Of a stretch of 57,897 nt of DNA, positions 1,025 through 36,987 are shown piece by piece. Origin of the DNA: a virus; the IMG/VR virus record IMGVR_UViG_3300044640_000504, positions 1 to 57,897 of that record; one strand, 5' to 3'. How positions within the stretch are numbered: the stretch's first letter is position 1; each line of letters begins with the position of its first letter. A program made the translations under genes and the position numbers. Under the pieces are notes generated by a model. That model did not search any database. It was not told the origin of the DNA and was given only the letters and a program-made list of their open reading frames with translations.

Positions 1025-1034
1025 ATTAGTTTAA

Positions 1035-5837: not shown

Positions 5838-5842
5838 TACTA

Positions 5843-6055: not shown

Positions 6056-6072
6056 AATGATGTGATTTATCT

Positions 6073-6083: not shown

Positions 6084-6091
6084 CCATAAAC

Positions 6092-7136: not shown

Positions 7137-7141
7137 ATAAC

Positions 7142-7366: not shown

Positions 7367-7383
7367 AACATTATTTTTGTATA

Positions 7384-7393
7384 TATAAATATA
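7384..7393 (-). promoter_or_regulatory. Late-promoter-like motif
   Basis: An exact coding-strand TATATTTATA lies between the tail-tube terminator and the ATG at 7366, about 17 bases upstream of that start. It supports choosing 7366 over the upstream start. Confidence 0.65.
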
Positions 7394-7399
7394 CCAAAA

Positions 7400-7431
7400 C
7401 AAAAAAAGTGTGTAAAAAATTACACACTTTT
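7400..7431 (-). terminator. Rho-independent terminator after the tail tube gene
   Basis: A perfect 12-base stem (AAAAGTGTGTAA/TTACACACTTTT on the plus strand) has a four-base loop and is followed on the minus strand by a T run. It lies 25 bases beyond the tail tube stop. Confidence 0.85.
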
Positions 7432-7455
7432 CTTAAATTTTTAATTTTGTTAATA

Positions 7456-7944: not shown

Positions 7945-7970
7945 TTTTTATATTCTCCTTATATCTTTTA

Positions 7971-7980
7971 TATAAATATA
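7971..7980 (-). promoter_or_regulatory. Late-promoter-like motif before the tail tube gene
   Basis: An exact TATATTTATA on the coding strand is followed by TAAAAGATATAAGGAG and then the ATG at 7944. The motif, ribosome site and start are compactly spaced. Confidence 0.65.
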
Positions 7981-7995
7981 TGTTTTTTAAATTTA

Positions 7996-10650: not shown

Positions 10651-11565
10651 TTAACCGATTTTTTCTTTAATTTCTTCGATTTGTTTTTGCTGTTCTTTGA
10701 TTGCTTCGATTAAAAGAGCTATTATTTTTTCATATTGAACTGCAAGGTATCCACTATTTCTTTCTACTACTATTTCAGGTAAGATTTCTTGTATCTCTTG
10801 TGCTATTATACCAACATCTTTGCCTTTATGAGAATGTATTTCATCAAATCCTTCTTTCCAATCAAATGTATTTCCACTAATTTTGTTTATTTTAGATAAT
10901 GCATTTACAATTGGTTCAATTTTTTCTTTTAATCTTCTATCTGATGTATCGTAAGCAGTAATATCACCAGTTGCAGTAATTGAACCTTGTACTGCTATAC
11001 CACCTGTAAAAGTTCCACCACCAAATGGATTACCCGTCGGACCTGTTGGTCCTTGTGGACCTGTTGAGCCGTTAGAACCAGCAGTTCCTTGTACACCTTG
11101 TGGACCAGTTGAACCGTTAGAACCTGCTGCTCCTTGTGCTCCATTAGAACCCGCTGCTCCTTGTGGACCAGTTGGTCCCTGATTACCTTGTGGGCCGGTT
11201 GAACCATTGTTTCCGTTTGGTCCCTGATTTCCCTGTGGACCTGTTGAACCATCGTTTCCGTTTGGTCCTTGATTTCCTTGTGGTCCTTGTACTCCAGATG
11301 TACCAGAAGTAGCCGCAGTATATGATGTACCATTTATACTTAATGGTCCTAATAATGATAATGAACCAGTTAAACCAAATGAACCAGTCATAGTATGTGC
11401 ATCATCTAACGAATTACCAAAGTTAAATGAACCTGATACGGATGATTGAGTAACATAATATACAGATGTTGATATGATATATTGTTCGGCAGTAATATTT
11501 CCTTTTACAGATAAACTACCTGTTACATTTAATGAGCCAGTAATCGAACTACTATGTATTTGCAT
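10651..11565 (-). CDS. Collagen-like tail fibre with C-terminal self-cleaving chaperone
   Basis: This protein has 304 residues. The N-terminal 90 residues carry short GSLxVTGSL beta repeats. A collagen-like Gly-X-Y run follows (about 92-180; [17 protein letters not shown]). A near-copy of a linker in the 34.8 kb fibre comes next ([16 protein letters not shown]). The last 97 residues form a peptidase S74 intramolecular chaperone starting at SDRRLKEKI (Ser 208) and ending in a coiled coil. In this family the chaperone trimerises the fibre and cuts itself off before that Ser. The start lies two bases after the giant collagen-like fibre gene. Confidence 0.85.
   Translation of the reverse strand: MQIHSSSITGSLNVTGSLSVKGNITAEQYIISTSVYYVTQSSVSGSFNFGNSLDDAHTMTGSFGLTGSLSLLGPLSINGTSYTAATSGTSGVQGPQGNQGPNGNDGSTGPQGNQGPNGNNGSTGPQGNQGPTGPQGAAGSNGAQGAAGSNGSTGPQGVQGTAGSNGSTGPQGPTGPTGNPFGGGTFTGGIAVQGSITATGDITAYDTSDRRLKEKIEPIVNALSKINKISGNTFDWKEGFDEIHSHKGKDVGIIAQEIQEILPEIVVERNSGYLAVQYEKIIALLIEAIKEQQKQIEEIKEKIG
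11030..11295 (-). repeat. Collagen-coding DNA repeats
   Basis: Imperfect 9- and 18-base repeats encode Gly-Pro-Gln-Gly-Asn-Gln and related triplets. Such tracts can change length by recombination. Confidence 0.7.
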
Positions 11566-18575: not shown

Positions 18576-18591
18576 AATTTTATTTTAATTA

Positions 18592-21381: not shown

Positions 21382-21382
21382 T

Positions 21383-23893
21383 TTATAAATCTTTAATTCT
21401 TATTACCGAAGTATAATTACCCCAAGTACTTACTAATATTTCTTTGTTTGCTTTAGTTGGTAATCTTAAACTAAAATCAGTTTTAGTGTATCCAATATTA
21501 CAAGCGTTTTGAGTTATAAGAAGAGCTTCCGTTCCATCTGCGGATAATTTATATGCGGATATTGGAGCATCTCTATTATATAGATATACTGGATTATTAT
21601 ACTTTCCGGTTTTCCATTCACCATTCCAATAAACTTCTGGTTTTACCCAAGGCGTATTTGCTTCTATAATATCTTTATGTTGTAATACTTGGAAATAACC
21701 AATGTATAACCAATCCATAGGACTATTAGCATGGTCACCAGTATCCCCGTACATAGCGTTGATATTACCAGTTACACTACTATCTTCCAATCCATTCCAA
21801 CCATAATAATTTGCCCAATATTTAAATGCATCTTTATCTTCATCTTGTCCTATTGAACCACCATCCCACATAAATAAACCATCTGCATAAGCCATACACC
21901 AGACTGCGTATGATTGAAAAACGGATGGAGCTATATATGCCCTAGAACCCGCATTCCCACCAGTACCAGGTAAATATCCCCCATAATTTGTACCATTCCT
22001 TACATATGTTAAATCGGCGCCAGCTACCGGTTCATGTCTTCTCCATAAATATCCAGCACATTGCATGGTTGAGGCCGTTGCCTCATTATAGGTTGTATCT
22101 ATTACTTTCCTTGCTACATCATAATTGTAAACTAAAGAATATGTAAACCATTGTGGAGCCGCATCGTTAAAGTAATTTGTTACAAAGCAATATTTAACAT
22201 ATTCACCAAAACCTTGCCATAACCCATAATCCCCAACTGCTTGGTCTATTGTCCAAGTCCCATTTGTAACAAATTTATCATAGCGTTCAAATAATTTATA
22301 ATTTTCATTTACATTTGAACCAGTAGAAAAATAAAACCAACCATCACCTACGGCTCCGTATTTGCCTCTATTATCTATTCCACCACCATAATAAGACCAT
22401 TTTGGGAAACGTTCTTTATTTGGTATTTGACCAGTTGCAATTCCATATGCAACTACACTATCATAACATCTCTTTAATGCATACCCAACATAATAATCGT
22501 TAGTTCCATTATATACCTCAAAATCTTCTTGTATGTGGTCTGCTAAATATAAATTTGCAGATGTTGCATCGTAACCACCAGGTTTTCCCAAATAAGTACA
22601 TAGTTGATTTGCAGGTCCTTCGCTTTGATAAGCAGTTCCAGAGTTTATTTCAGTAGTCCAATGGTATGGATTTACATAATTATATCTAAATCCTGAATAA
22701 CTACCGTTTTCCCAAGTAAAATTATCTACAAATAATGAAATCATCATAGCCGGTATTTCCATACCATTTGGCCAAGATGGAATACCAGGAACTGCTCTTT
22801 GCATTGCGTTTCTAATTGGAAAATCTCCACCAAAAACCATTTTTCCAACACCACTACTAGCTTCATCAAAATCAGGTTCGGTGTACCAATTGAGTTCCAA
22901 ATCCATAATCTTTTTTGTTGAAACTCTTTGCTTTTCAGTTATTCCTTGATTTTTCCAAGTCTGTATTCTCCAATCTACATTTTTTGAATATGGGGGTGTT
23001 CCATTACTTAATGGTGTTATATCGGCAAGAGGTAGTGACATATCACTAAATAATTTTTGCTTTCCAAACTTATCTTTTATATGATTTACTTTTGGCATTC
23101 TTCTTATAATGGTTGATGCCTCATAGTTTTCATTTGCATACCAGTAATCTGGTTTAAATGTATAAGTTAAACTCCCAGTTGTTACTACTCTATATGGGTC
23201 ATCTGCTAAATGAATTACACCTTGAACTATACTATTTAATGTATATCCGGGTGATGTATCTGGAGTACCACTTAAATTTTCGTTTCTATTACTACCAGTA
23301 TGGTATTCACCATTTATTACACGAAGGTCATATCCCTTCATATCTGTAATATCTATGGATTTTAATGAACGAGATACAAATGCATTATTACCAGAACCAC
23401 CTGCTGAATGTAATTTTCCATTTTCTATTACAAATGATTTAAATGCACCATTTGCATCCGGTCTTACATATGTTGTATCCCAATAATCATCCGTTACATA
23501 AATTCTACCTTGTGCGGATTGTGATAATGATAATTTCATCCCACACCATTGAAAATAACCACCATTACCATCGGAACGAGAACAAGTTAAATCCATTTTA
23601 GCTGAACCACTATATCCCGTACAATCTGTCCAGTTTGTATCAAAACTACCCGTCATTAACTCTAATGGTTGTGTTGTAAATCTCCCATTAGAACCCAACG
23701 TTGCGTAGTATGTTTTAAAGTGTGTGGGGATTACATAATTACCAGCAGGTGCTAACACAGATTTAGATGCATCTGTATAAAATGTTGTACCCAATGTAAA
23801 AAAATTATCACTAGCATAAAGTATAGAGCCACTATTATCTAATCTAGGATTAGTAATCCTGTCTTTTGCTTGAATGTACGATGAATACCCCAT
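21383..23893 (-). CDS. Tail spike or adhesin, paralogue 3 of 3
   Basis: This 836-residue protein is the first-transcribed of the three paralogues. It has the common N-terminus (AKDRITNPRLDNSGSILYAS, SVLAPAGNYVIPTHFK), an insertion of about 40 residues near 95-150 relative to paralogue 1, the middle motif GYLWRRHEPVAGADL, WCMAYADGLFMWDGG, and the common end (FSLRLPTKANKEILVSTWGN then YTSVIRIKDL). The acidic residue after the DGLFMW segment differs between copies. It lies five bases after the jelly-roll-like protein gene. A receptor-binding spike is inferred; enzymatic activity is possible but unproven. Confidence 0.7.
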   Translation of the reverse strand: MGYSSYIQAKDRITNPRLDNSGSILYASDNFFTLGTTFYTDASKSVLAPAGNYVIPTHFKTYYATLGSNGRFTTQPLELMTGSFDTNWTDCTGYSGSAKMDLTCSRSDGNGGYFQWCGMKLSLSQSAQGRIYVTDDYWDTTYVRPDANGAFKSFVIENGKLHSAGGSGNNAFVSRSLKSIDITDMKGYDLRVINGEYHTGSNRNENLSGTPDTSPGYTLNSIVQGVIHLADDPYRVVTTGSLTYTFKPDYWYANENYEASTIIRRMPKVNHIKDKFGKQKLFSDMSLPLADITPLSNGTPPYSKNVDWRIQTWKNQGITEKQRVSTKKIMDLELNWYTEPDFDEASSGVGKMVFGGDFPIRNAMQRAVPGIPSWPNGMEIPAMMISLFVDNFTWENGSYSGFRYNYVNPYHWTTEINSGTAYQSEGPANQLCTYLGKPGGYDATSANLYLADHIQEDFEVYNGTNDYYVGYALKRCYDSVVAYGIATGQIPNKERFPKWSYYGGGIDNRGKYGAVGDGWFYFSTGSNVNENYKLFERYDKFVTNGTWTIDQAVGDYGLWQGFGEYVKYCFVTNYFNDAAPQWFTYSLVYNYDVARKVIDTTYNEATASTMQCAGYLWRRHEPVAGADLTYVRNGTNYGGYLPGTGGNAGSRAYIAPSVFQSYAVWCMAYADGLFMWDGGSIGQDEDKDAFKYWANYYGWNGLEDSSVTGNINAMYGDTGDHANSPMDWLYIGYFQVLQHKDIIEANTPWVKPEVYWNGEWKTGKYNNPVYLYNRDAPISAYKLSADGTEALLITQNACNIGYTKTDFSLRLPTKANKEILVSTWGNYTSVIRIKDL

Positions 23894-25291: not shown

Positions 25292-25300
25292 TATAAATAT
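25292..25300 (-). promoter_or_regulatory. Late-promoter-like motif
   Basis: ATATTTATA on the coding strand 23 bases upstream of the ATG at 25268. It marks the start of the spike operon and overlaps the stop of the heptosyltransferase-like gene. Confidence 0.6.
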
Positions 25301-27393
25301 CAGTCTAATACCTTTTTCAACATTTTAATTACCTCTGTGTATTCTATTGATTTAGAACATTCAAATTGTCTTTCAGTACCTTTGTGGTCTGGACACCAAT
25401 TCCAATCCCCAGCGTCCAAACGATAGCGGTTAAAACAACCACTACATTTAGTTTGTGGTGCAGTTATTCTATATGTATCTAATCCAGTTTCTGCAAATCC
25501 TTCGGAGAATCCTGATATTAGTATGGTTGGTGTTTTGGTAGCCCAACTTACCCAACTCAATCCACTACCAATTCCTATGAATGCCTCACTCTTTTGTAGT
25601 TCTTCTATTACATTATCTATCGGTCCGTTTGGTAGTTGAGTAATTCCAGTTGGATGATTATTTCCCATATACCCATCACCCTCTCTACTTAAAAGAACAA
25701 CTTTATATCCTTTATTATTTAACCAATCTACTACCTTTTGCCACCCACCATCGTTGTTCCAATACTTTGATTGAGCAGTTCCGTGTATTGCAATTGCTAT
25801 TTGCTTTTCACGTTTGATTTCTGTGTTTAGTTTTAGTAAAGGTCTTACCTCTTTGTATTCTAATCCCAATATATCGGTTGCCGTTTTTTGTAAAGGATGT
25901 TGTTTGAAATCGGTTGGAACTTTTGCATTATCATATTCTGCGGATGTATCATCTTTATAGAACCAACCTATACGATACATAGCATATAAATTAGGTGCAG
26001 TTTCACCTGGCTCTATAAATTGTAATTGCGGGTATTGTTCTTTAAAAAACTGATTACTAAATGTAGATACAACTACATCACAATTCCATTTCTTACGGAA
26101 CTCTTCTGCTATTGGAAACCAAGCTAATGTATCACCCAATGATTTAGACTCTAATGCAATATAAACTCGCTTACCAGTTGCATCATAATCGTGCTCATAA
26201 ACTAATATATTATCCTTATATACTTCAATTTTCCAATTTACAAAATACTTTTTACCAGCTTTTGCCCAATGGCCATCTTTTAATTTAGTAGTAAATTCTA
26301 AACCATTTGTATCTTTGTTTATAAATTTAACTTCATATTCATCGGTTGTTGGTGATTTTACATCTAAATAAGGACCATCTACAAAATTTACCTCAAATGT
26401 AGGTTTTAATAAATTTGGTCTTTTAATTAAATTATTGTAAATCACTTTTTCTGGTTTTAATTCTTTTACTATATTTTGTAAATTTACTTTTTGATTATCA
26501 CTTATATATGTTGCTATACTATCGTAGTAATTTTCGTAAGTGTGTAGTTTTTTAAGAAAAAGGGGTAATCTATATGATAATGCTTCTTTAACTGCTAATG
26601 GGTTTAGTTCCCACTTTGATGGAAAATAAAATAAATCAGCCCCTTTGTAGAACTTTTCAGTATCACTTTGCTCTCCCCATATTATACAATTATCAGGTTT
26701 GTTTTCCATCAACGGTCCCCAATAGAATTGGAAGTTACCAGCTTGATTTCCTACAAAATGAAACTTTACTTTATAGTTTTCTTCTTCACATAACCTTGCT
26801 AACTCAAATATATCACCCTGATTTTTACCATCTGTAAATAAACCAACGTGAAGAATGTGTTTGTATTCTTTATCAAATCCTACAATTTTCTTTGCTTCAT
26901 CTTTATCACCATCCCAATACTCAATTGGATATTCCCAAATATCACAATCAATGTGAGTAAAGTATTTGGCAAATTTCTTTCTACTCCATTCACTTACTAA
27001 TACGAATTTATCAGCCGTATAAAGTAAATCTTTTGGTTCTGTGTAAGATGAGTGAGTTGTTATTACTATGTTGTAATTTCTACCATTATCAAAAATCTCA
27101 TTTAGATATTGTTTATCTACAAAGGTTTCTGGTATTTCTTGAAAGTGAATAATATGTGGTTGCTCTTTACGGATAATACCAACAACATCACTTTTATGCT
27201 CGCCAATAGTTATTACTTCACATAATTCCTTTATTTTGTTTCTTTGAACTACAAAATCCATAGATACACAATTATACTCTACAACAACTATTTCAAACTC
27301 ATCCTTAAATGTTTGGATTTGCTTTAATAGGTATTGTGGCATACCACCCGTTGAAAGGTGAGGAACTATATATAATAACTTTTTCTTATCCAT
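25300..27393 (-). CDS. GT4-type plus TibC-like heptosyltransferase fusion
   Basis: This 697-residue protein joins two glycosyltransferases. Residues 1-300 are GT4-like: YIVPHLSTGGMPQYLLKQI, THSSY, HVGLFTDGKNQG and NPLAVKEALSYRLP. Residues about 390-697 match the autotransporter O-heptosyltransferase family (TibC type): SKSLGDTLAWFPIAEEF, IAIHGTAQSKYWNNDGGWQ, FIGIGSGLSWVSW. Four Cys (650, 653, 667, 679) stand where that family binds iron, in GDWNWCPDH and RQFECSKS contexts. Known members put heptose on Ser/Thr of secreted adhesins. Here the likely substrate is the phage's own Ser/Thr-rich fibres, by inference. It is the last gene of the operon and overlaps the previous gene by 8 bases. Confidence 0.85.
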   Translation of the reverse strand: MDKKKLLYIVPHLSTGGMPQYLLKQIQTFKDEFEIVVVEYNCVSMDFVVQRNKIKELCEVITIGEHKSDVVGIIRKEQPHIIHFQEIPETFVDKQYLNEIFDNGRNYNIVITTHSSYTEPKDLLYTADKFVLVSEWSRKKFAKYFTHIDCDIWEYPIEYWDGDKDEAKKIVGFDKEYKHILHVGLFTDGKNQGDIFELARLCEEENYKVKFHFVGNQAGNFQFYWGPLMENKPDNCIIWGEQSDTEKFYKGADLFYFPSKWELNPLAVKEALSYRLPLFLKKLHTYENYYDSIATYISDNQKVNLQNIVKELKPEKVIYNNLIKRPNLLKPTFEVNFVDGPYLDVKSPTTDEYEVKFINKDTNGLEFTTKLKDGHWAKAGKKYFVNWKIEVYKDNILVYEHDYDATGKRVYIALESKSLGDTLAWFPIAEEFRKKWNCDVVVSTFSNQFFKEQYPQLQFIEPGETAPNLYAMYRIGWFYKDDTSAEYDNAKVPTDFKQHPLQKTATDILGLEYKEVRPLLKLNTEIKREKQIAIAIHGTAQSKYWNNDGGWQKVVDWLNNKGYKVVLLSREGDGYMGNNHPTGITQLPNGPIDNVIEELQKSEAFIGIGSGLSWVSWATKTPTILISGFSEGFAETGLDTYRITAPQTKCSGCFNRYRLDAGDWNWCPDHKGTERQFECSKSIEYTEVIKMLKKVLD

Positions 27394-28030
27394 TTTGTAA
27401 ATTTCGTATTACCTCATCAAAATATGGTAATTCTACTTGTATTTCATCGTTGTAATCTTTGCTAGTCAAACTCAATTCACCTAATGCTTTTAGATTATCT
27501 ATAATGTATATTGGTCTTTTGTTTTTATCTCTGTTCCACCAATACAATAAATCATCTCCAAAGAATATGCGTAATCTTTCATCTATTTTTATATAGTTTT
27601 CTTTACGAATAAACATCATACAACCAAATCCTAAATACCTACATTCCGCTTCTTTAAATTCAAATACATCTACATTTGTATTAAACTCTGTACCTAAATT
27701 TTTATTCGAATCAAACCCAATTATTCCAAAATCTAAATTGTTTATTGCTTCTAAATTGTGTTTTATTGTTTGAAAGTTTATTTCTATATCATCATTTAAT
27801 AAACAAACAATATTATTTTTAGCAAGTTCAACACCAATATTCCAAGCTTTATTTACAAATAAGTTTTCTTTTGGAATTAAAATTGTTAGTTCTGGGTCTA
27901 AATAGCAACCATGTGAATTATCAATTAAAATAAATTCAGCATTTGGAATGTTTGCTCGTTTGTAATCATCAATGATATTACATAATCGTTTTGCATCTTT
28001 CCACATTGTGGGTACTATAAAACTTATCAT
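27386..28030 (-). CDS. GT2-family glycosyltransferase
   Basis: This 214-residue GT-A fold enzyme has the family N-terminus (MISFIVPTMWKDAKRL), an FVNKAWNIGVELAKNNIVCL helix-strand and the LNDDIEIN motif where the acidic pair binds metal and sugar nucleotide. YLGFGCMMFIRKENY and FFGDDLLYWWN supply the acceptor-side and catalytic acidic residues. There is no membrane segment, so it is soluble. It overlaps both neighbours by a few bases (ATGA-type at 28027-28030), indicating translational coupling in the operon. Donor and acceptor cannot be read from the sequence. Confidence 0.8.
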   Translation of the reverse strand: MISFIVPTMWKDAKRLCNIIDDYKRANIPNAEFILIDNSHGCYLDPELTILIPKENLFVNKAWNIGVELAKNNIVCLLNDDIEINFQTIKHNLEAINNLDFGIIGFDSNKNLGTEFNTNVDVFEFKEAECRYLGFGCMMFIRKENYIKIDERLRIFFGDDLLYWWNRDKNKRPIYIIDNLKALGELSLTSKDYNDEIQVELPYFDEVIRNLQNG

Positions 28031-29850
28031 ATTTTAAATGTTTTGTTTGCGTTATTCTCATCTGCACCAATTCTTGATACAACATCTATTGGATTATTTG
28101 GATTTTCTTTATAGCAATAATCATCCAATCCCAATTCTTCAAATCGTTTAGCAATTCTTTCGTTGTAGTGATACATAATGGTTCTTACTCTTCTTTGAAT
28201 ATCTGCTCTACTTAAATCATGTGTATTTCTACCAGTTGTATTATTATAGATAAACTGAATATAACACATTCTAGGTATTCGCATCATTAGTGTTCCCAAA
28301 AATGTTCTTACTAATAATTCATAATCATCTGCAATTGCTAAATCTCTGTTATGTCCACCAATTTGGAAATAGATTTCTCTTCTCCAAGCTCTAATATGAT
28401 TTGGAACACCCACAATATGACGAATTGTTTTTGGATTTATGTTTGGTGCAATGCAAGAATCAAATTTCATCCCACCTACATTAACACTTTCATATTTACC
28501 ATAACCAAATGCAAACCCATCAGGATAGTGTAGTGAAGTCCAATTCTCATCACATTCAGCATTATCGGTATAAAAGAAACCAATTTCCGGGTGAGTTTGT
28601 GATGCGGAAAAAAGATAATCAGTACAATCAGTAGTAAGGTAGTCATCGTGGTCTAATTCTGCTAATAAATATCCTCTACATAAACTTGCGGCTCTATATT
28701 TACTTTCACCAATTATACCGCCACTCTTTTCTCTAAAATCATATACCTTAACTCTTGCATCGTTTTTAGCAATTTCTTCTGCAATTTTAAGTGTTTTACC
28801 ACCATCCGTTGAATCATTCACCAATACCCATTCCCAATTAGTATAAGTTTGGTTTTGTAAAGATTGATATGTTTTTAATAATTTTTCACCAGTATTATAT
28901 ATTGGAGTAAAATACGAAATCAATTGTGAAACATCGTTTTTTAAAATGTTTTCCATAGCACAATGATATGCATACTCACCGGTATTTCCATCAATGGCAG
29001 GAATAGTAATCCATTTATTACGAATTTGTAAGGGTTGATTTGCCAAATTAGGAAAATTTCTCCAATCGTCTGAAATGGTTACAATAGAATCTGGCTTTAA
29101 CGATGCAATTGTTTTTTCAATATCTACATCATTTTGCAATTGTAATGTAATTAAACTATCATCTTCGTAATCACCTATTTTGTACGATTTTAGTTGTACT
29201 TGTTCTCCTTTATTTATAAGTAAAACTTTTGGAACTTTTGCAGTTGGTGTAGTTTCTAACTGATTGTAATAAGAAAGTTCTTTTGGAATGTAACTAAACC
29301 ATTGTGGATTTTCTGCATAGATTTTATCTATTAAAATACCATCACCCGCGTAATCTCCTGTGAAACTATACTCATTAAATACACTATGGTGAAAAATTAG
29401 TTGGGCAATATCCACACCCTGATATTTCATATTTTCAGGTTTAGCTTCTCTTACATCTAAACCAGTAAAATCTTTACCATATACACTTTGATTTACTACA
29501 AATATTTTTTGTGTATTATTACTTGTTTCGATTGCTTTTACAACCTCTATAAAAAAATGGGGATGAACTATATTATCATCATCCACTACTACCACAAAAC
29601 CATCATCAAATGTTTTTGCTAAATCACTTATTTGTGGATATAAATAATCCGTACCATTGCCAGTTACAAAATGTAGTTGGATTTTTGGATTATTTAATCT
29701 AGCTAATAGTTCAGCTGATATATCTTTTAATCTTGTAGTATCAAATAAAATATGCCATTTAACATCTCCGTTATAATTATCAAATATAGATACTCTTACT
29801 TTATCTAAATTATTTACTCTACTGCAACGTGTTATTATGTTAAATTTCAT
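28027..29850 (-). CDS. Two-domain glycosyltransferase (two GT-A-like halves)
   Basis: This is a 607-residue protein. The N-terminal half (about 1-230) is GT-A-like with FDDGFVVVVDDDNIVHPHFF, where DDD is a metal-binding candidate, and SFTGDYAGDGILIDK. The C-terminal half (about 305-600) is a clear GT2 domain: YFTPIYNTGEKLLKTYQSLQ, NWEWVLVNDSTDGG, LLAELDHDDYLT and a late IADDYELLVRT that may hold the catalytic base. Two transferase domains in one chain suggest successive sugar additions. It shares one base with the next gene upstream. No signal or membrane segment is seen. Confidence 0.8.
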   Translation of the reverse strand: MKFNIITRCSRVNNLDKVRVSIFDNYNGDVKWHILFDTTRLKDISAELLARLNNPKIQLHFVTGNGTDYLYPQISDLAKTFDDGFVVVVDDDNIVHPHFFIEVVKAIETSNNTQKIFVVNQSVYGKDFTGLDVREAKPENMKYQGVDIAQLIFHHSVFNEYSFTGDYAGDGILIDKIYAENPQWFSYIPKELSYYNQLETTPTAKVPKVLLINKGEQVQLKSYKIGDYEDDSLITLQLQNDVDIEKTIASLKPDSIVTISDDWRNFPNLANQPLQIRNKWITIPAIDGNTGEYAYHCAMENILKNDVSQLISYFTPIYNTGEKLLKTYQSLQNQTYTNWEWVLVNDSTDGGKTLKIAEEIAKNDARVKVYDFREKSGGIIGESKYRAASLCRGYLLAELDHDDYLTTDCTDYLFSASQTHPEIGFFYTDNAECDENWTSLHYPDGFAFGYGKYESVNVGGMKFDSCIAPNINPKTIRHIVGVPNHIRAWRREIYFQIGGHNRDLAIADDYELLVRTFLGTLMMRIPRMCYIQFIYNNTTGRNTHDLSRADIQRRVRTIMYHYNERIAKRFEELGLDDYCYKENPNNPIDVVSRIGADENNANKTFKI

Positions 29851-30764
29851 TATCTTAAACTAGCTTCAAATCTGGAATTATGTTCTTCTAAATCTTTAAA
29901 ATCTTTTGTACTATCACAAAACTTACAAAAGGCTTCTCTTGGAAAAGTAAATCCATATTTACAATTTATAGCACAATTTGTTTCGTATCCACACCCGCGT
30001 ATATCTTCAACTACTTTATCAAAATTATCATCATAATGCCAATGGTCACAATGTACCATAATACCATTTTTTAACCAAGCTGATTTTAGTTGCTTACCCA
30101 ATGCTTCTGCTTGTATTTCAGCTTGTCCCCATTGTGTAGATGTTTTTAATTCTGTTGGATTTCCGCTTTCATCGTAAAATTCCTTTAATGGTAATATACC
30201 CAAATTGTAGTATGCTGAATTTTTTCGTATATGCGGATTATTGGTATAATCTCTTTCTTTTAAGAATACAAACTCATCGGTTACACTTTCTACATTTCTA
30301 TCAACAACCCAATATGCAAATCCAAATTGCCTGTTATCAATATCATGTTGATATTTTCGTAATTGTATTTGTTCAATACCGTTGGCTTCCATCATTTCTA
30401 ATGAACGATTTAACCACTCACTATCAAAACCAGCAATATTTTTGGGTAAAGTAATCCAATCTCCTTCTAAAAAAAGAGTATATTTGTAATCTCTACAATA
30501 ATGATTTAATCTATTTATACCAGCACCAACTCCCATATTGATATTGGATTGAATTGGAATAATATCTACCTTATCTTTCCATTTAGTACGAAGAGTATCA
30601 CATACATCAAATATGATTTCACTTTCACCATTTATAAAAATAAACCATTTTACAAACGGAATATTCGTATTTTCTAAAAATGTATTTATTGTAAGTTCTA
30701 ACTGCGTATCACGTTTTACACCGTTATGAGTTAAAGTTACTATACAAAAATGTAGTTTATTCAT
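29850..30764 (-). CDS. Glycosyltransferase-like protein with Cys-rich tail
   Basis: I start at the ATG at 30764 (MNKLHFCIVTLTHNG), directly after the upstream stop; an earlier ATG at 30785 would overlap that gene by 20 bases. The 304-residue protein looks like a GT2-type GT-A fold: IVTLTHNGVKRDT, NINMGVGAGINRL and TLFLEGDWITLP, where EGDW replaces the usual DxD. A HCDHWHYDDNFD segment and a C-terminal cluster of five Cys (CGYETNCAINC, FCKFC) may bind a metal. It shares its final base with the next gene. Function as a glycosyltransferase is likely but less certain than for its neighbours. Confidence 0.7.
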   Translation of the reverse strand: MNKLHFCIVTLTHNGVKRDTQLELTINTFLENTNIPFVKWFIFINGESEIIFDVCDTLRTKWKDKVDIIPIQSNINMGVGAGINRLNHYCRDYKYTLFLEGDWITLPKNIAGFDSEWLNRSLEMMEANGIEQIQLRKYQHDIDNRQFGFAYWVVDRNVESVTDEFVFLKERDYTNNPHIRKNSAYYNLGILPLKEFYDESGNPTELKTSTQWGQAEIQAEALGKQLKSAWLKNGIMVHCDHWHYDDNFDKVVEDIRGCGYETNCAINCKYGFTFPREAFCKFCDSTKDFKDLEEHNSRFEASLR

Positions 30765-30765
30765 A

Positions 30766-31350
30766 TTATTTATAAGGAGAACCACCTACCCAAAGTACTA
30801 AACTTTTACGAGTTCCTTTTGTTACAGGTGTTACTCTATGTAATAAAAATGATGGGAATAAAACTGCTACTCCTTTTTGTTTTGGCATTGTTTGAAAATC
30901 ACCATCGGACCACATTTCTAAATCACCACCTTCATACTCATTTGGGTCTGATAATTGAATTGTAATACTTATTTTTCTATGGTTTATTGAACCTGGTCCA
31001 ATATCCGTGTGCCAACCATAGTGCCCACCACCCTCATAATATTCAGTATATTGTATTGAATCTATAATAGAATGCAAGTTAAATTTCCATATTGCATTAT
31101 TTGCTTCTATTGATAAATCACGTATTCTATCATATACCCAAGCAGATTGACCATCATGATGCATCCATTTTATTTTGGATTTTCTATATTCAGTCTCATC
31201 ACCTGCAATTGTACTTGCAGTTTCAAAACTATAACATTTTTGTAAATTATGTATCCATTCTAATTCCTGCGAATTAAATGCAGAATCAAATGAATAATAA
31301 TTGGTTTGGTCTATTGTATTATCAATACCATATATTGGATATGATTCCAT
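30766..31350 (-). CDS. 2-oxoglutarate/Fe(II) oxygenase, PiuC/prolyl-hydroxylase type (copy 1)
   Basis: This 194-residue protein has the complete dioxygenase set: HTD at 114-116 and His 171 for iron, and Arg 181 for 2-oxoglutarate, in GWHTDIGPGSINHRK and LLHRVTPVTKGTRKSLVLW. The SDPNEYEGGDLEMW strand is typical of PKHD-type (PiuC/YbiX) and prolyl 4-hydroxylase-like enzymes. It is a paralogue of the next gene upstream, which lies five bases away. Hydroxylation of a protein residue is a reasonable guess, and Pro-rich collagen-like fibres are encoded nearby. Other substrates such as lipids or nucleotides are not excluded. Confidence 0.85.
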   Translation of the reverse strand: MESYPIYGIDNTIDQTNYYSFDSAFNSQELEWIHNLQKCYSFETASTIAGDETEYRKSKIKWMHHDGQSAWVYDRIRDLSIEANNAIWKFNLHSIIDSIQYTEYYEGGGHYGWHTDIGPGSINHRKISITIQLSDPNEYEGGDLEMWSDGDFQTMPKQKGVAVLFPSFLLHRVTPVTKGTRKSLVLWVGGSPYK

Positions 31351-31355
31351 ATTTT

Positions 31356-31976
31356 TTATTTAAAAGTGTTTCCACCAACCCACAATACTAAACTTTTACG
31401 AACTCCTTTAGTTACAGGTGTTATTCTGTGCATTAAATAACTTGGAAACATCACTACTGCTCCTTTTTGTTTTGGTGCTTTAATTGGTTCTTTACCACCT
31501 GCCCATATTTCTAAATCACCACCCTCGTAATCATCAGGGTCAGATAATTGAACTGTAATACTTATTTTACGATGATTTAGTGGGGCTGGTCCTACATCCA
31601 AATGCCAATCATACCCACCTCCTTCTTCACCATTATATTCCGTATATTGAATAGCATCTTTTACACATGATAAATCAAATTTCCAATAGTTAAAGTTTGC
31701 TTCTAATGCTTGTTGCATTAATTTATAATAAAGCCATTCGGTTTTATCTGCTTCAGGTGCCATCCATTTAATATTAGATTTTCTAATTGGATTTTCTTCT
31801 TTTTTACTATCATTAAATTCAATTTCACTTTGTGTAAGTGCTTCTTGAAAATCATATAATTTTGAAATGCGTAATACATTACGAATTTCTACATTACTAA
31901 AACCTTTTTCAAACCAATAATAATCTATTTGATTTAATTGATTGTTTTGTGGAAAAACTGGATAAAATTCTAACAT
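31356..31976 (-). CDS. 2-oxoglutarate/Fe(II) oxygenase, PiuC/prolyl-hydroxylase type (copy 2)
   Basis: This 206-residue paralogue of the downstream gene keeps all active-site residues: HLD at 125-127, His 183 and Arg 193, in YDWHLDVGPAPLNHRK and LMHRITPVTKGVRKSLVLW. Relative to copy 1 it has an insertion of acidic residues near 52-65. The two share the KWM...W.Y start of the fold and the I[D/K][S/D][A/S]IQYTEY segment. Having two divergent copies suggests two substrates or two positions. It follows the sulfotransferase gene by six bases in the same operon. Confidence 0.85.
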   Translation of the reverse strand: MLEFYPVFPQNNQLNQIDYYWFEKGFSNVEIRNVLRISKLYDFQEALTQSEIEFNDSKKEENPIRKSNIKWMAPEADKTEWLYYKLMQQALEANFNYWKFDLSCVKDAIQYTEYNGEEGGGYDWHLDVGPAPLNHRKISITVQLSDPDDYEGGDLEIWAGGKEPIKAPKQKGAVVMFPSYLMHRITPVTKGVRKSLVLWVGGNTFK

Positions 31977-31982
31977 AATTTA

Positions 31983-32804
31983 TTATTTTGAGTAATTGAA
32001 ATATTTATAAAACCATTGATATTTTTCATATATATAATTTGATGCATGTTCACCAATAACATCAATATAATCTTCTCTAGGTGGGGTAAAGTTTTTTCTT
32101 ATTGTATGGTCCGCATATGGTCCATATACTTGGTCATTTTCGTGTGTAATTTGTTCAATATTATTAAAATCATGTTCATAGTAAGGTAGTTCTAAATATT
32201 CATATAATTCTTCCATTGCTTCTGTTGGAAATTTACAGAAATCTTCAAACTTTATAAAATGAATATGTTTATCATTTCCATCTATAATACATTGCCATAA
32301 ATTTTCCAATGGCAAATCAAGCATTGGCTTTTGTGCCATATCATCAATTCTAGTAATAACAGAATTTCCTTTGGGGAATTTATAATCAGTTACATTAAAA
32401 TCCTTTAATGGGTTTGCTCTATATTTTTTTTCCATAGATGAAAATATACTACGCAAATCCCTAACCATAACTACTATTTTTGGATTTGGGTCATAGGCAT
32501 TAACAAAATTATATTCACCATGCCAACCTCTAAACTTATCTATTGCATATGGTTTATCTGTTAAACCGCTATAATACCCATTTATTCCATTCTTTAAAAA
32601 AGAACTGAATCCTGGTAATAATTCATCTTGATTTTGAGCTTGAAAGAGTATGTGATTTGTAAATAAATTTCTACATTCCAACATCATAGTAAACATACCA
32701 GATGTTGGAGATGGAAATATATCAGGATTTTGTCCCAACACATTTTGCAATAAAGTAGAACCACTTCTTGGAAAAGAAGCATTATAAAAAACTCTTTTTA
32801 TCAT
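31983..32804 (-). CDS. PAPS-dependent sulfotransferase
   Basis: This 273-residue protein has both PAPS-binding signatures: the 5' phosphosulfate loop SFPRSGSTLLQNVLGQNP (about 10-27) and the 3' phosphate motif VVMVRDLRSIFSSM (about 111-124, with Arg 115 and Ser 119). The layout resembles tyrosylprotein and polysaccharide sulfotransferases. It transfers sulfate from PAPS to a hydroxyl of protein or sugar. It is the first gene of the seven-gene modification operon and has a variant late-promoter motif just upstream. The acceptor is unknown; glycosylated or hydroxylated phage fibres are the suggested target. Confidence 0.85.
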   Translation of the reverse strand: MIKRVFYNASFPRSGSTLLQNVLGQNPDIFPSPTSGMFTMMLECRNLFTNHILFQAQNQDELLPGFSSFLKNGINGYYSGLTDKPYAIDKFRGWHGEYNFVNAYDPNPKIVVMVRDLRSIFSSMEKKYRANPLKDFNVTDYKFPKGNSVITRIDDMAQKPMLDLPLENLWQCIIDGNDKHIHFIKFEDFCKFPTEAMEELYEYLELPYYEHDFNNIEQITHENDQVYGPYADHTIRKNFTPPREDYIDVIGEHASNYIYEKYQWFYKYFNYSK

Positions 32805-32825
32805 TATAACTTTGATATATTATCT

Positions 32826-32835
32826 TACAAATATA
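32826..32835 (-). promoter_or_regulatory. Variant late-promoter-like motif before the modification operon
   Basis: TATATTTGTA on the coding strand, one mismatch from the consensus, about 21 bases upstream of the sulfotransferase ATG. TATATTTG also fits the Bacteroidota -7 pattern TAnnTTTG. Confidence 0.5.
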
Positions 32836-32864
32836 CCACTTTTTTATTTAATAACCAAATTATT

Positions 32865-33341
32865 TTATGGATTGTTTTCTTCCGTTGGATTTAAACTTTC
32901 ATCAATTGGTGGATATTCACCTGGCTCTTCATATATCCATTTACGTCTTTTTTCGGCCCATATCCAATAATCATGTCCACCAACAGGTACTTCTGGTTTT
33001 GCATATTCGGGTTTTAATTCCCACTTAAATGTTGTTCTGTTTAATATCCAAGCTGGTTCGGTTGAGCCTTCAATAACCTCTTCTGGAGTAGCCATTCTTG
33101 GTTCTTTTGCATAAAACGCATCTGCTTCCGCATCATAGTAACCACCAATGGTTGCAAAGTTATATCGTAATGGTGCTTTGTATGAACCACTTTCTGGAGT
33201 AAAATATTGACCACCAAATGTATTATACGATGTCTGTATCCATAAAGAAGGTTCTCCATGTCTTCCAGAATCAATATCAGCTTGTTCTGCTCTAATTACA
33301 TCTACTACTATACCGTCTTCTACTTTTGCAAAATGTCCCAT
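32865..33341 (-). CDS. Conserved phage virion-associated protein
   Basis: This 158-residue protein matches a small family I recall from T4-like marine phages: MGHFAKVEDGIVVDVIRAEQ at the start, SLWIQTSYNTFGGQYFTPES, PLRYNFATIGGYYDAEADAF, then short Trp-containing strands such as AWILNRTTFKWE and a Pro-rich end. It has no catalytic motif. In other phages such genes lie among tail-fibre genes, as here, between the adhesin and the sulfotransferase. A structural or accessory tail role is likely but unproven. Confidence 0.7.
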   Translation of the reverse strand: MGHFAKVEDGIVVDVIRAEQADIDSGRHGEPSLWIQTSYNTFGGQYFTPESGSYKAPLRYNFATIGGYYDAEADAFYAKEPRMATPEEVIEGSTEPAWILNRTTFKWELKPEYAKPEVPVGGHDYWIWAEKRRKWIYEEPGEYPPIDESLNPTEENNP

Positions 33342-33365
33342 ATTATATTTTTACTTTTAATTTTA

Positions 33366-34313
33366 TTATGTCCATCTAATAACAACTTTTCCATGACCAC
33401 CATTTGCGGCACGTCTATCACCGGGTGTATTTGCCCATTTATTAACTGCCCCACCACCGGCTCCTCCGCCGCGGCCACCTTCACCATCTGATGCATTCTT
33501 TCCACCTGGATTATTTCCAGTACATCCTTGACCACCTCCACCATTTCCACCATATCCGGAGGCTCCATTATTATAGCCCGAACCTCCACCTCCTCCACCG
33601 GCTTGGTATCCAGTTGGACCTCCGTATGGGAAATATGAACCACCATTTCCACCTGGTCCTCCACCATCACCTTGTCTACCGTTACCAGAACTACCACGTC
33701 CTCCACCACCGCCTGAACCAGAGCCACCCCCGCCACCTGGCCCACCGGGGTTTCCTTGTGTTCCATTACCAGCTGCTCCACCATAGTTACCACGAGAACC
33801 TCCGCCACCTGAACCACCTTGTCCAGCTGCTCCCCAACCCCAAGTACCACCGCCACCACCAGTAGCTCCTACGTTTCCAATTGCCGAACCACCACCGTTT
33901 CCAGCAGTTCCATCTACACCACCACCTCCGCCACCAACGGTTACACTAACAGGTGATGCTATATAATAATTAGTTTCAACTACACCACCAGCTCCACCGC
34001 CTCCGCCTGTATTTGCATCATTTCCTCCGCCGCCGCCGCCACCAGCAATTACTAATGTACCAAAGGCCTTTCCACCACCAGTTAAAAATGTACCAGGTGA
34101 GTTCCACTCTGCAAAGTTATGTCCACCAGAGTTAAATGTATATGCACCTTGTGCGTTAGCAAAGAATGCTGAATATCCGTGAAATTCACTCATAGAGTCT
34201 GGAGAAGACCTTCCAATAGCAGCTGATAATGTTCGTAGTGAACTATTACTATTACTTCTAGATAACTCTGCGTTTATCTGTGAAATTGATATTGTTCCCG
34301 ATGGTAATGCCAT
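33366..34313 (-). CDS. Poly-glycine tail adhesin
   Basis: This 315-residue protein begins with the tail-protein module MALPSGTISISQINAELSRS, a SMSEFHGYSAFF segment and a short beta domain (YTFNSGGHNFAEW). From about residue 85 it is dominated by glycine runs separated by short loops (GGGGGGGND, GGGGGAGGVVETNYY, TVGGGGGGVDG), ending HGKVVIRW. Sandwiches of polyglycine II helices with variable tip loops form the receptor-binding adhesin of phage S16 (gp38), so this is probably a receptor-recognition protein. Eukaryotic-type glycine-rich domains are an alternative. A late-promoter motif lies 20 bases upstream. Confidence 0.75.
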   Translation of the reverse strand: MALPSGTISISQINAELSRSNSNSSLRTLSAAIGRSSPDSMSEFHGYSAFFANAQGAYTFNSGGHNFAEWNSPGTFLTGGGKAFGTLVIAGGGGGGGNDANTGGGGGAGGVVETNYYIASPVSVTVGGGGGGVDGTAGNGGGSAIGNVGATGGGGGTWGWGAAGQGGSGGGGSRGNYGGAAGNGTQGNPGGPGGGGGSGSGGGGGRGSSGNGRQGDGGGPGGNGGSYFPYGGPTGYQAGGGGGGSGYNNGASGYGGNGGGGQGCTGNNPGGKNASDGEGGRGGGAGGGAVNKWANTPGDRRAANGGHGKVVIRWT

Positions 34314-34332
34314 ATTATATTACTTTATTTAA

Positions 34333-34761
34333 CTATAAATATAAAACTTTTTTAATTTCTCTAAATGTTTCTCTCGGTTCACCATCTGTGCAAATTGAAA
34401 TAAAGTCCTCTAATGGTTCTTCATAATTATCTACAAAGTATGTTTCCCTTCCTCTTTCTTTTGTAGTGTAAAGATATATTTCTTTTACATTACAATCTTT
34501 TTTTAATGCTTCACGAAGTTCTCTGTAAGGTGCTACCATTGATATGATTACACCTTTATTTTCAGAGTCCAAATATCGAACTATATCAAATGATTTTTCA
34601 ATATTTTTTAATCTTCCTTCTTTTGTATAATCGGTATTTGGAAATAACTTTCGCATCGTATCACCATCTATATGAAACATATGGTTTCCAAGATACATTT
34701 GTAACATTTTTGCTAATGTAGTTTTTCCACTACCCGGCTGTCCTATGAATAAATAAATCAT
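34333..34761 (-). CDS. cysC: APS kinase-like P-loop kinase
   Basis: This 142-residue protein has a P-loop GQPGSGKTT (7-15), the APS-kinase hallmark HIDGDTMRKLFPN (30-42), KNIEKSFDIVRYL, and ISMVAPYRELREALKK matching the ISPFRAER segment of CysC. APS kinase makes PAPS from APS and ATP. It is shorter than bacterial CysC (about 200 residues) and could instead be a related kinase. A sulfotransferase gene lies 1.5 kb downstream, which supports a PAPS role. No ATP sulfurylase is visible in this window, so APS would have to come from the host. Confidence 0.75.
   Translation of the reverse strand: MIYLFIGQPGSGKTTLAKMLQMYLGNHMFHIDGDTMRKLFPNTDYTKEGRLKNIEKSFDIVRYLDSENKGVIISMVAPYRELREALKKDCNVKEIYLYTTKERGRETYFVDNYEEPLEDFISICTDGEPRETFREIKKVLYL
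34334..34343 (-). promoter_or_regulatory. Late-promoter-like motif before the adhesin gene
   Basis: An exact TATATTTATA on the coding strand inside the last codons of the APS-kinase-like gene, 20 bases upstream of the adhesin ATG. Confidence 0.6.
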
Positions 34762-34818: not shown

Positions 34819-36987
34819 TTATTTATTCTTTAATTCGTCTAATTCAGCTTTCAATTCTTTGATTGCTTCTATAATAAGTGGAACAATCTTTTCGTATTTA
34901 ACCGTTAAGTAGTTCTCACCTGATTTAGATATAATTTCACCACTTTCTAATACTAATCTATCTATTGGTGCTAATACTACTACCTCTGGTAATACTTCTT
35001 GTACCTCTTGTGCCGATACTCCGACTTGTTGCTCATCTGTTGTATAACCCAATGATTTAGCCACATCACTATTTGTGTAGTGGAAACCATTTAATTGTTG
35101 TACTTTTGATAATGCGTTTTCAATATTACCAATTCTTACTTTCAATCTATCGTCAGATGAATATGCCGTAATATCACCAGTTGCAGTAATTGCTCCTTGT
35201 ACTGCTATACCTCCGGTGAATGTACCACCACCAAATGGGTTTCCAGTTGGACCAGTTGGTCCAGTTGGTCCAGTTCCACCATTTGGTCCAGTTGGTCCTT
35301 GTCTACCTTGTGGACCAGTTGGTCCAGTTCCACCAGTTGGTCCAGTTCCACCAGTTGGTCCTTGATTACCTTGCGGTCCAGTTCCACCAGTTGGTCCAGT
35401 TCCACCAGTTGGTCCTTGATTACCTTGCGGTCCAGTTCCACCAGTTGGTCCTTGATTACCTTGTGGTCCGTTTGCTCCATTAGAACCATTTGGTCCTTGA
35501 TTTCCTTGTGCTCCGGCCGTACCTGATGTAGCTGCACTATATGATGTTCCGTTTATAGTTAAATCACCAACTACACCAATTGAACCAGTTACTCCAAGAG
35601 AGCCAGTTATTTGAGTTGCTGATACTATTGTTACTAATGTACCATTATCTGTAATGTTTGAGTTAGCAACGTGCTCTCTACCACCACCTTTTAATAATTT
35701 GTTAGTTGTAGGGTATGTTTCATTACCTAAATCGTTATATGTTTCTGGTCCTACCAAAAATACAGATGATGTTACAGTAGTACCATCTCCTCTGTGTACA
35801 AATATAAATTCATCTAAAACTGAATCATAAAGGAATGAACCAGAACCACCCGTTGAACCACTATCTACTGAAACTACACCTGAAAATCTAACTGCTGGTG
35901 TATCAGTATTTAATATTACTGTGTTTGTCCCAATACTTACTGCCGAAGCGGTAATGTTTTGTACCGATGATGAACCTTGTACAACTAAATTAGCACTAAC
36001 AAAAAGTGAACCAGTAATTACTTGTGTTCCAGTAAATATATTATCACCACTTAATTTAGCGTAAGTTGTTACTGCACTACCACTATATGCAGATGCTGAT
36101 GCAAATGCTCCAGCTGCTGCTTGCGTAGCAGTTGTGATATTATCAGTTTGAGTATTGTTTGTTGTTGCTAAACTTGCTGATAAACCAACTTGAGAAGCTA
36201 AACTAGCACTAAATGATGTTGCTGCTGAACCACTATATGCAGATGCTGATGCAAATGCTCCAGCTGCTGAAGCAGAGTTGGTAGTGATGTTACCAATATT
36301 TGTGTTTATCGTTGTATAGAAACTACCACTATAAGCAGATGCAGAAGCGAATGCTCCAGCTGCTGAAGCAGAGTTGGTAGTAATATTGGTATTGGCCGAT
36401 TGTGTGTAAGAGTTGAATGAACCAGTAGTTGTATAGATTTCCGCTACACCAGCTGATGATGAATTTGCTACTTGTTGAGTAACAGTTCCATTATTATCTA
36501 CCACATTGATTGAACCGGTTGTGATTTGGATATTACCAATTTGGATACCACCACCTGCAATACCAGTAATTGTAGTTACTACTTGGTTATTACCCGGATT
36601 AACCATTTTGATTGAACCAGTAGAAATGTAAAGGTCTCTCCACATTTTTGCTGCACTACCCAAATCAAATGTATTATCATTTGAAGGGATAAGAGATGAA
36701 CTTAAACTAGCTACAACATTTACACTGTCGGATGTATTATCACCAATTGTAATGTTTCCACCTAATGTTAAATTACCACCAATTTTTGCGTTTCCAGTAA
36801 TATCTAATCCTGAACCTGAAATAGGTCCAAAATTTCCAGTACTTCCAGTTCCTCCTGCTGATAATACGATGTCTCCATTTGGACCACCAATTACTAAAGT
36901 TCCTAGTGTGGAGTTTACGAATGGTTCTCCGAATTGGAGTGAACCTGATTGTTGTGCGGTTGTACCGCGTCTAAATTTAAGTGCCAT
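34819..36987 (-). CDS. Collagen-like tail fibre with S74 chaperone
   Basis: This 722-residue fibre has an N-terminal tropism-determinant-like module ([20 protein letters not shown], then [15 protein letters not shown]), Ser/Ala/Thr-rich stalk repeats (about 195-310; [10 protein letters not shown]), a beta module also present twice in the 38.6 kb fibre ([20 protein letters not shown]), a collagen-like tract (about 495-580; [10 protein letters not shown]) and an S74 chaperone of 112 residues starting SDDRLKVRI. The linker [16 protein letters not shown] is nearly identical to the one in the 10.6 kb fibre. The S74 domain trimerises the fibre and is then cut off. A late-promoter motif lies 30 bases upstream. 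Confidence 0.85.
35225..35515 (-). repeat. Collagen-coding DNA repeats
   Basis: Tandem imperfect repeats encode [13 protein letters not shown] blocks. Two copies of a roughly 50-base unit near 35340-35460 are almost identical, suggesting recent expansion. Confidence 0.7.

Follow-up and report, generated by a model that had tools for sequence, protein, structure and literature searches.

A candidate fibre-modification operon combining BAHT-type glycosyltransferase, 2OG oxygenase and sulfotransferase genes in the tail-fibre cluster of a probable T4-like phage

The window analysed here comprises all 57,897 nucleotides of the IMG/VR virus record IMGVR_UViG_3300044640_000504, which probably derives from a T4-like phage with a host probably belonging to Bacteroidota. 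It contains a minus-strand operon of seven enzyme genes running from 32804 down to 25300. All seven ORFs of this originally predicted array were confirmed, with successive gaps or overlaps of 6, 5, −20, −1, −4 and −8 nt, as were the sulfotransferase, the two oxygenases and the APS-kinase-like gene (34333–34761, same strand) that had been proposed. The operon is set inside a tail-fibre gene cluster, with the enzyme and fibre genes contiguous on one strand from 36987 down to 10651 without a gap exceeding 60 bp. It recurs in other phages and is under purifying selection, with dN/dS values of 0.075–0.21 for all eight enzymes in comparison with the relative L004. A small phrog_7759 protein (32865–33341, minus strand) recurs beside this sulfotransferase and is found in L004, L009, L010, L011 and L017.

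Three minus-strand genes of the cluster code for collagen-like proteins: a fibre with 32 Gly-X-Y triplets, 10 of them GPT (34819–36987), a long fibre with 291 triplets (11568–16229; PF01391, 1.1e-125) and a short one (10651–11565; PF01391, 6.5e-15). As each bears a C-terminal Peptidase_S74 chaperone, we regard them as genuine fibre or spike genes. The original prediction placed collagen-like genes on both flanks of the enzymes; the gene at 34819–36987 indeed adjoins them, but the nearest on the other side (11568–16229) lies about 9 kb away, beyond four non-collagen structural genes. Between the operon and this long fibre are three paralogous Tyr-rich (7–9%) structural proteins (16284–23893, minus strand), which are also possible substrates of modification, and a glycine-rich structural or adhesin-like protein (phrog_2295, 2.3e-20) is encoded at 33366–34313 on the same strand. 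The description of the fibres as full of Gly-X-Thr/Ser is apt insofar as Thr and Ser make up about 31% of the Y and 35% of the X positions in the 11568–16229 product, but Gln, at 46%, is the most frequent residue at Y.

The last enzyme of the operon (25300–27393, minus strand) is a GT4 (GT-B) glycosyltransferase fused to a TibC-type protein O-heptosyltransferase domain of the bacterial-autotransporter-heptosyltransferase (BAHT) family, which occupies about half of the protein (residues ~345–695); Pfam renders it as a GT4 plus GT9 fusion. The BAHT family glycosylates protein serines, with heptose as the sugar transferred and a dodecameric assembly among its traits. The domain scores 291.9 bits against TIGR04414 (hepto_Aah_TibC; curated cut-off 200), covering profile positions 22–374 of 374, and the protein matches the TibC structure 4RAP with E=1.8e-53. 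Alignment equates TibC Asp110, Thr226, Lys230 and Trp305 with D421, T539, K543 and W614, and the four-cysteine iron finger is kept as C650, C653, C667 and C679. Across 48 aligned phage BAHT domains the catalytic D, K and W are invariant, with Thr or Ser at TibC position 226, and the iron finger is present in 48 of the 49 rows of the phage alignment. The adenine-contacting Arg286 of TibC is V595 here and varies among T, V, R, L and A across phages, suggesting that the donor may not be ADP-heptose. By score and catalytic residues the domain belongs to the BAHT family, though its donor may differ. This clue, the strongest in the operon, was absent from the original prediction.

Upstream in the operon, all on the minus strand, lie a small GT2 glycosyltransferase of 214 aa (27386–28030; PF00535, 2.5e-5), a GT2 enzyme of 607 aa with two GT-A-like halves (28027–29850; PF00535, 7.7e-19 in the C-terminal half and PF13641, 1.6e-7 in the N-terminal half) and a putative GT-A glycosyltransferase of 311 aa (29850–30785), with a GTG start or, alternatively, an in-frame ATG at codon 8. 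The N-terminal ~130 aa of the last resemble GT-A folds such as TarS in a low-confidence model (6 sequences, mean pLDDT 48) of which only that half is usable. Of the four glycosyltransferases proposed, Pfam supports the GT2 genes and the GT4–GT9 fusion; the 29850–30785 product has no significant family match.

We compared the distribution of BAHT domains across phage records picked by tract pattern, 26 with Gly-Thr-Ser and 24 with Gly-Pro-Thr tracts. BAHT is present in 15 of the former as against one of the latter (Fisher p=5e-5, kinship ignored), and among records of at least 60 kb in 13/16 and 1/9, respectively. In this pattern-chosen set, a Gly-X-Y gene lies within ~10 kb of 11 of the 16 BAHT genes, where 4.5 would be expected (p=3e-4). 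The initial argument had drawn on the Gly-Pro-Thr tracts of BclA; it is weakened because phages chosen for such tracts mostly lack both BAHT and the type of 2OG enzyme discussed below. Gly-Pro-Thr tracts are accordingly rejected as a predictor of the operon: only 1/24 such records has either domain, and that one also matched the Gly-Thr-Ser pattern.

The two 2OG-Fe(II) oxygenases are paralogues with 48% identity, PKHD/P4H-like oxygenase a (30766–31350; PF13640, 6.1e-17) and oxygenase b (31356–31976; PF13640, 2.6e-15), both on the minus strand. The HxD...H iron triad and 2OG-binding arginine of oxygenase a (H114, D116, H171, R181) are invariant in 27 relatives, and its PDB matches are PKHD hydroxylases and a prolyl 4-hydroxylase. 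A Gly-X-Y gene is found within 10 kb in 38 of 45 loci anchored on this family; in the comparison sets the count is 14/47 for loci anchored on the sulfotransferase, 6/68 on the APS kinase and 3/21 on the sheath (at least 5 kb upstream). In the pattern-chosen set, five of six 2OG genes of this type are within 2.5 kb of a Gly-X-Y gene, three of them within 40 bp; these were counted with an alignment (A8), since PF13640 missed a true relative in G041. In a first sample of related sequences, Pro was enriched at X in tracts neighbouring 2OG genes (0.28 versus 0.02). There are exceptions, the 2OG neighbours in G072 and G077 being nearly Pro-free, and as a general rule prediction of 2OG genes from Pro at X fails in the pattern-chosen sample, leaving a tendency only.

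The first gene of the operon (31983–32804, minus strand) codes for a PAPS-type sulfotransferase (PF13469, 4.6e-14, over the cut-off), in which residues of the 5'-PSB PRSGST loop (P12, R13, G15–T17) and of the 3'-phosphate site (R115, S123) are invariant across 32 sequences. By profile and fold its nearest solved relatives are human TPST1/2, followed closely by heparan 3-OST, with TM-scores of only ~0.5. Given this resemblance and the three neighbouring Tyr-rich paralogues, sulfation could be separate from any glycan, with the enzyme acting as a TPST-analogous protein-tyrosine sulfotransferase on the 16284–23893 proteins. We consider this improbable: the catalytic Glu of the TPST GEETR motif aligns with Pro or Thr in the phage family, which also led us to reject TPST membership, and most sulfotransferase relatives are without these Tyr-rich genes.

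The APS-kinase-like protein has a shortened lid in place of the full one but passes the Pfam cut-off (PF01583, 1.6e-12), and a 28-member profile of its family matches PDB APS kinases with 2e-18. The P-loop, DGDxxR, GR..N and SPY..R motifs of APS kinase (CysC) are invariant or nearly so in these 28 sequences. An APS kinase gene lies within 3 kb in 30 of 47 sulfotransferase loci (counted as families), often with overlapping stop and start, which supports PAPS-dependent sulfation. An HxGH nucleotidyltransferase of other sulfotransferase cassettes, considered as an ATP-sulfurylase partner, was set aside, being absent from the possibly incomplete records L004, L009 and L010. Co-occurrence of operon and collagen genes in related phages had been proposed as a check: BAHT and 2OG genes do track Gly-X-Y genes, but many of the 47 sulfotransferase-anchored loci lack a collagen gene. 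A score of 42 bits against the NCBIfam apsK equivalog cut-off of 138.7, together with a 2OG relative adjoining a topoisomerase-like gene in the 735-kb phage LR756501, could point to a role in which the 2OG enzymes act on nucleotides while the kinase-like protein and sulfotransferase modify a DNA base or a metabolite, and DNA glucosylation is possible in T4-like phages. Such a role is very unlikely in view of the retained APS-kinase motifs, the conserved sulfotransferase linkage, the fibre-gene setting, the 2OG–fibre linkage and the BAHT domain.

The position of the operon in the fibre cluster could also reflect a hypervariable host-interaction island, with the enzymes acting during infection on LPS or capsule, the surface polysaccharides of the host, for instance to prevent superinfection or aid progeny release. 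Enzymes of the GT2 and GT4 families are characteristic of LPS synthesis, genome assemblies of Planctomycetota and Verrucomicrobiota also contain members of the sulfotransferase family, and such a reading has been published for the glycosyltransferases of the pelagimyophage host recognition cluster (PMC7029224). However, no 19-residue window exceeds a Kyte–Doolittle value of 1.2 in any enzyme, which argues against transmembrane anchors and the membrane-embedded GtrA/GtrB/Gtr proteins of O-antigen conversion, and the operon ORFs include no lipid-carrier enzyme or flippase. Moreover, protein acceptors define the BAHT family, which goes along with Gly-Thr-Ser fibre genes, and the operon genes are packed amid structural genes on one strand. 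We therefore rate host-surface modification as unlikely, though less so than the preceding alternatives.

Instead, we lean somewhat towards a late cytoplasmic operon that would O-glycosylate, hydroxylate and sulfate the phage's own fibres. On the sequence evidence, fibre O-glycosylation is fairly well supported and hydroxylation moderately so, while sulfation of the fibre or its glycan is perhaps a further activity; the BAHT and 2OG genes near Gly-X-Y genes and the retained PAPS link favour the fibre modification originally proposed, with the fibre itself only a possible sulfate acceptor. We posit that the BAHT domain and partner glycosyltransferases would act on Ser and Thr in fibres that are rich in these residues or carry Gly-X-Y tracts, during the synthesis of the fibres, and that the oxygenases might hydroxylate the fibres, with proline in Gly-Pro-X triplets as the most likely target. 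This would confer stability and perhaps create additional sites for glycans. The phage APS kinase would make PAPS from host APS for the sulfotransferase to add sulfate to the glycan or the fibre. The fibre substrates, late expression, order of steps, sugar and sulfation site are all what we infer, as is a function in adhesin stability, host binding or shielding.

More tentatively, large phages might widely carry their own decoration pathway, which would comprise PKHD/P4H-like hydroxylases, a BAHT-type O-glycosyltransferase and a sulfotransferase unit that makes PAPS, and would furnish Gly-X-Y virion fibres with glycans that are both hydroxylated and sulfated. Virus-made protein decoration of this kind is hardly known in bacteriophages, and the pathway would yield what is, as far as we know, the first sulfated virion glycoprotein that a phage produces with enzymes of its own. 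If phages do alter the chemistry of their receptor-binding fibres, adsorption, stability and antibody recognition would not be predictable from sequence alone, and structures of recombinant fibres would not show the true surface. Phages would also gain a protein O-glycosyltransferase family known from bacterial autotransporters, and the finding would bear on the split of phage Gly-X-Y tracts into Pro-containing and Gly-Thr-Ser classes, and offer compact bacterial tools for modified collagen-like proteins. The associations yield specific predictions, cheap to test, for the cultured Microcystis phage Mel-JY01 (PP395634), in which ORF 2–3052 codes for a Gly-Thr-Ser fibre and adjoins an FkbM-BAHT gene.

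A literature search mostly outside subscription journals turned up no phage sulfotransferase or hydroxylase reported to act on fibres. The assertion that no such phage system had been described must nevertheless be qualified, as virion glycosylation in mycobacteriophages and both hydroxylation and glucosylation of collagen in mimivirus are known. We know of no hydroxylase, sulfotransferase, APS kinase or BAHT domain described for the mycobacteriophage system, nor of a sulfotransferase operon for that of BclA. Virion proteins of mycobacteriophages Che8, Corndog and Myrna are decorated by phage-encoded glycosyltransferases, a shared feature (Freeman 2023, cited in PMC12363180); the targets there are capsid and tail tube. 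Mimivirus, a giant eukaryotic virus, modifies its own collagen-like proteins with a collagen lysyl hydroxylase and glucosyltransferases, but targets lysine, and the available portions of the sources describe no sulfation (PMC9546862, PMC8968730). Bacillus anthracis BclA is a glycan-bearing Gly-X-Y protein, and a B. anthracis prolyl 4-hydroxylase acts at X and Y of test peptides (PMC8968730); however, BclA is a spore protein. The host recognition cluster of the T4-like pelagimyophages and cyanomyophages likewise has glycosyltransferases among tail-fibre genes, read as host O-antigen/LPS modifiers, but a sulfotransferase is not mentioned there (PMC7029224). The BAHT enzymes TibC and Aah share with the phage domain the Asp base, the Thr/Lys/Trp sugar-site residues and the iron finger; the phage domain differs in its fusion to GT4 and in the loss of the adenine-contacting Arg. 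The known acceptors of the family are beta-helical autotransporters, not collagen (PMC4358343), whereas the phage has no autotransporter but fibres with Gly-X-Y tracts. In L005 the BAHT gene is additionally fused to FkbM-methyltransferase and sugar-binding GT domains.

The virus is T4-like (57,897 bases). Its major capsid protein is 52–53% identical to the counterparts in Flavobacterium phage immuto and in a metagenomic huge phage; with Microcystis phage Mel-JY01 the identity is 50%. Based on these identities, Bacteroidota are the likely hosts of the clade, an assignment that is unproven for this phage itself. From 36987 down to 10651 every gene lies on the minus strand with gaps of at most 60 bp, in the order: a collagen-like fibre, an APS-kinase-like gene (34333–34761), a glycine-rich protein, a small phrog_7759 protein, seven enzyme genes (25300–32804), a structural protein, three Tyr-rich paralogues and two collagen-like fibres. 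This continuous block and the family matches confirm that an enzyme operon sits among fibre genes. Each of these three fibres carries a C-terminal Peptidase_S74 chaperone; the Pfam collagen model matches the long fibre at 1.1e-125. The Tyr-rich paralogues (16284–23893) are structural proteins with 7–9% tyrosine and no Pfam match, present in only a few of the loci compared.

Family searches recovered one sulfotransferase, two GT2-type enzymes, one GT4–GT9 fusion (25300–27393), one APS-kinase-like protein and two paralogous 2OG-Fe(II) oxygenases (2OG; a, 30766–31350; b, 31356–31976) that are 48% identical to each other. The expected families are thus borne out except for a fourth glycosyltransferase (29850–30785), which had no significant match in these searches and whose N-terminal half resembles GT-A enzymes in a low-confidence structure model. 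The operon recurs in three other records (L004, L009 and L010, with sulfotransferase identities of 95, 80 and 77%, respectively), and dN/dS against L004 is 0.075–0.21 for all eight enzymes.

The key finding is that the GT9 half of 25300–27393 is a predicted bacterial-autotransporter-heptosyltransferase (BAHT) domain, scoring 291.9 bits against TIGR04414 ('autotransporter strand-loop-strand O-heptosyltransferase'; curated cut-off 200) and matching the TibC structure at 1.8e-53. In TibC, catalysis relies on Asp110 as the base, the donor site comprises Thr226, Lys230, Arg286 and Trp305, and the iron ligands are Cys339/342/358/370 (PMC4358343). All these residues are kept in the phage protein excepting Arg286, the adenine contact, which is replaced by Val595. 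Across 48 phage BAHT domains the catalytic and iron-finger residues are nearly invariant and the Arg286 position is variable, suggesting that the donor may be other than ADP-heptose. In a 318-kb phage contig (L005), a 1447-aa protein (4976–9319) fuses an FkbM methyltransferase, a sugar-binding GT, a GT4 and a BAHT domain; nearby (1556–2803) lies a PF11397 'GlcNAc' glycosyltransferase (9e-72), of a family that includes the Skp1 hydroxyproline GlcNAc-transferase. Mel-JY01 (PP395634) has a BAHT fusion (4750–8430) annotated merely as 'methyltransferase FkbM' and a Gly-Thr-Ser fibre ORF of ~1016 aa (2–3052), overlain by antisense CDSs in the record.

We defined Gly-X-Y genes by at least 8 consecutive triplets, a length reached by 1 of 4171 residue-shuffled proteins. 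Among the matches listed, viral contigs were picked solely by GPTGPQG or GTSGTSG, and the search then covered 50 entire records with a minimum length of 30 kb. With clustering at 90% identity as the sole kinship control, 15 of the 26 Gly-Thr-Ser records carry a BAHT domain (above the cut-off in 14), compared with 1 of 24 Gly-Pro-Thr records (Fisher p = 5e-5), this single record matching the Gly-Thr-Ser pattern as well; in records of at least 60 kb the counts, under the same control, are 13/16 and 1/9. Likewise with 90% clustering only, a Gly-X-Y gene lies within ~10 kb of 11 of the 16 BAHT genes, where record lengths would predict 4.5 (p = 3e-4). In two pattern-chosen sets (viral contigs L340–L419 and L460–L536), the tracts form two distinct groups, one containing Pro (GPQ/GPT) and one almost devoid of it (GTS); few are intermediate.

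Among the 80–120 matches listed per scan, and again with only 90% clustering to control for kinship, a Gly-X-Y gene lies within 10 kb in 38 of 45 2OG-anchored, 14 of 47 sulfotransferase-anchored, 6 of 68 APS-kinase-anchored and 3 of 21 sheath-anchored loci (the last with at least 5 kb upstream). An association with Gly-X-Y genes is seen for the oxygenase and BAHT genes; many sulfotransferase loci among these matches have no collagen gene. In the pattern-chosen sample, 6 of 50 records contain the present 2OG type; for five of these six genes a Gly-X-Y gene is no more than 2.5 kb away, and for three of them within 40 bp. A counterexample to the fibre link is the closest database relative among the matches listed (L245:16753–20591, from the 735-kb phage LR756501; 60.6% to oxygenase a), which adjoins a topoisomerase-like gene and no fibre gene. 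Proline is a plausible target of the oxygenases; in the first sample it occupies position X of 28% of triplets in loci with 2OG versus 2% without. However, this association is restricted, because Gly-Pro-Thr phages of the pattern-chosen sample mostly lack this oxygenase and two 2OG-neighbouring tracts there are nearly Pro-free. With BAHT also scarce in them, the Gly-Pro-Thr tracts invoked by the original prediction do not mark the operon.

The sulfotransferase family keeps its PAPS-binding elements, and its nearest solved relatives, by profile and AlphaFold model (mean pLDDT 89), are protein-tyrosine sulfotransferases (TPST), then heparan 3-O-sulfotransferases. The phage family does not keep the catalytic Glu of TPST, and therefore tyrosine sulfation cannot be claimed; the sulfate acceptor is the weakest link in the whole reading. 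The APS-kinase-like protein retains nucleotide- and APS-site motifs, has a shortened lid and scores under the NCBIfam cut-off. Both genes stay together in more distant phages: after clustering at 90%, and counting sulfotransferase-anchored loci alone among the matches listed, 30 of 47 sulfotransferase families have an APS kinase no more than 3 kb away, and the stop codon of one gene often overlaps the start codon of the other. Many cassettes run on into a 118–154-aa HxGH nucleotidyltransferase and a DUF2061 membrane protein, the order sulfotransferase–APS kinase–HxGH nucleotidyltransferase, often with DUF2061 next, being seen in loci L019:10001–13025, L036:10001–11724, L059:9992–11822 and L082:1855–3668. 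The L005 nucleotidyltransferase shows a weak ATP-sulfurylase likeness, and the cassette may be a compact, candidate complete sulfate-activation unit; the HxGH gene is absent from window-type records (L004, L009 and L010), which may be incomplete. Contig L638 (CAJQMN010000070.1), placed in a Flavobacteriaceae MAG by binning and most likely of phage origin, carries sulfotransferase and collagen-like fibre genes together with a 315-aa protein resembling one upstream of the sulfotransferase in phage cassettes.

Glycosyltransferases within the host recognition clusters of T4-like phages have been read in print as modifiers of host LPS (PMC7029224), here a less probable alternative. We favour the fibres themselves as the putative substrate of the operon, because of its co-location with structural genes, the soluble nature of the enzymes (none of the eight has a transmembrane segment), and a BAHT domain that is directed at proteins and correlates with Gly-Thr-Ser tracts. 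The proposal that the phage hydroxylates, glycosylates and sulfates its own fibres is thus partly supported, and sharpened by the BAHT domain as a new element: putative O-glycosylation is the best-supported step, through BAHT and its Gly-Thr-Ser link, putative hydroxylation has moderate support from the 2OG–fibre link, and sulfation of the fibre is possible. Known relatives are mimivirus collagen hydroxylation and glucosylation (PMC9546862, PMC8968730) and mycobacteriophage virion glycosylation (PMC12363180). Both narrow the suggested novelty to the combination of virion-protein decoration with sulfation and BAHT, of which the literature searched contained no description.

Elsewhere in the genome (52530–54910), five adjacent small genes (at 52530, 52892, 53287, 53843 and 54377) share a leader, MIKLKxLL, and directly precede a prohead-protease-like gene at 55129. 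These leaders look like capsid-targeting leaders, and similar MIKNFxxF leaders are present in the 735-kb phage.
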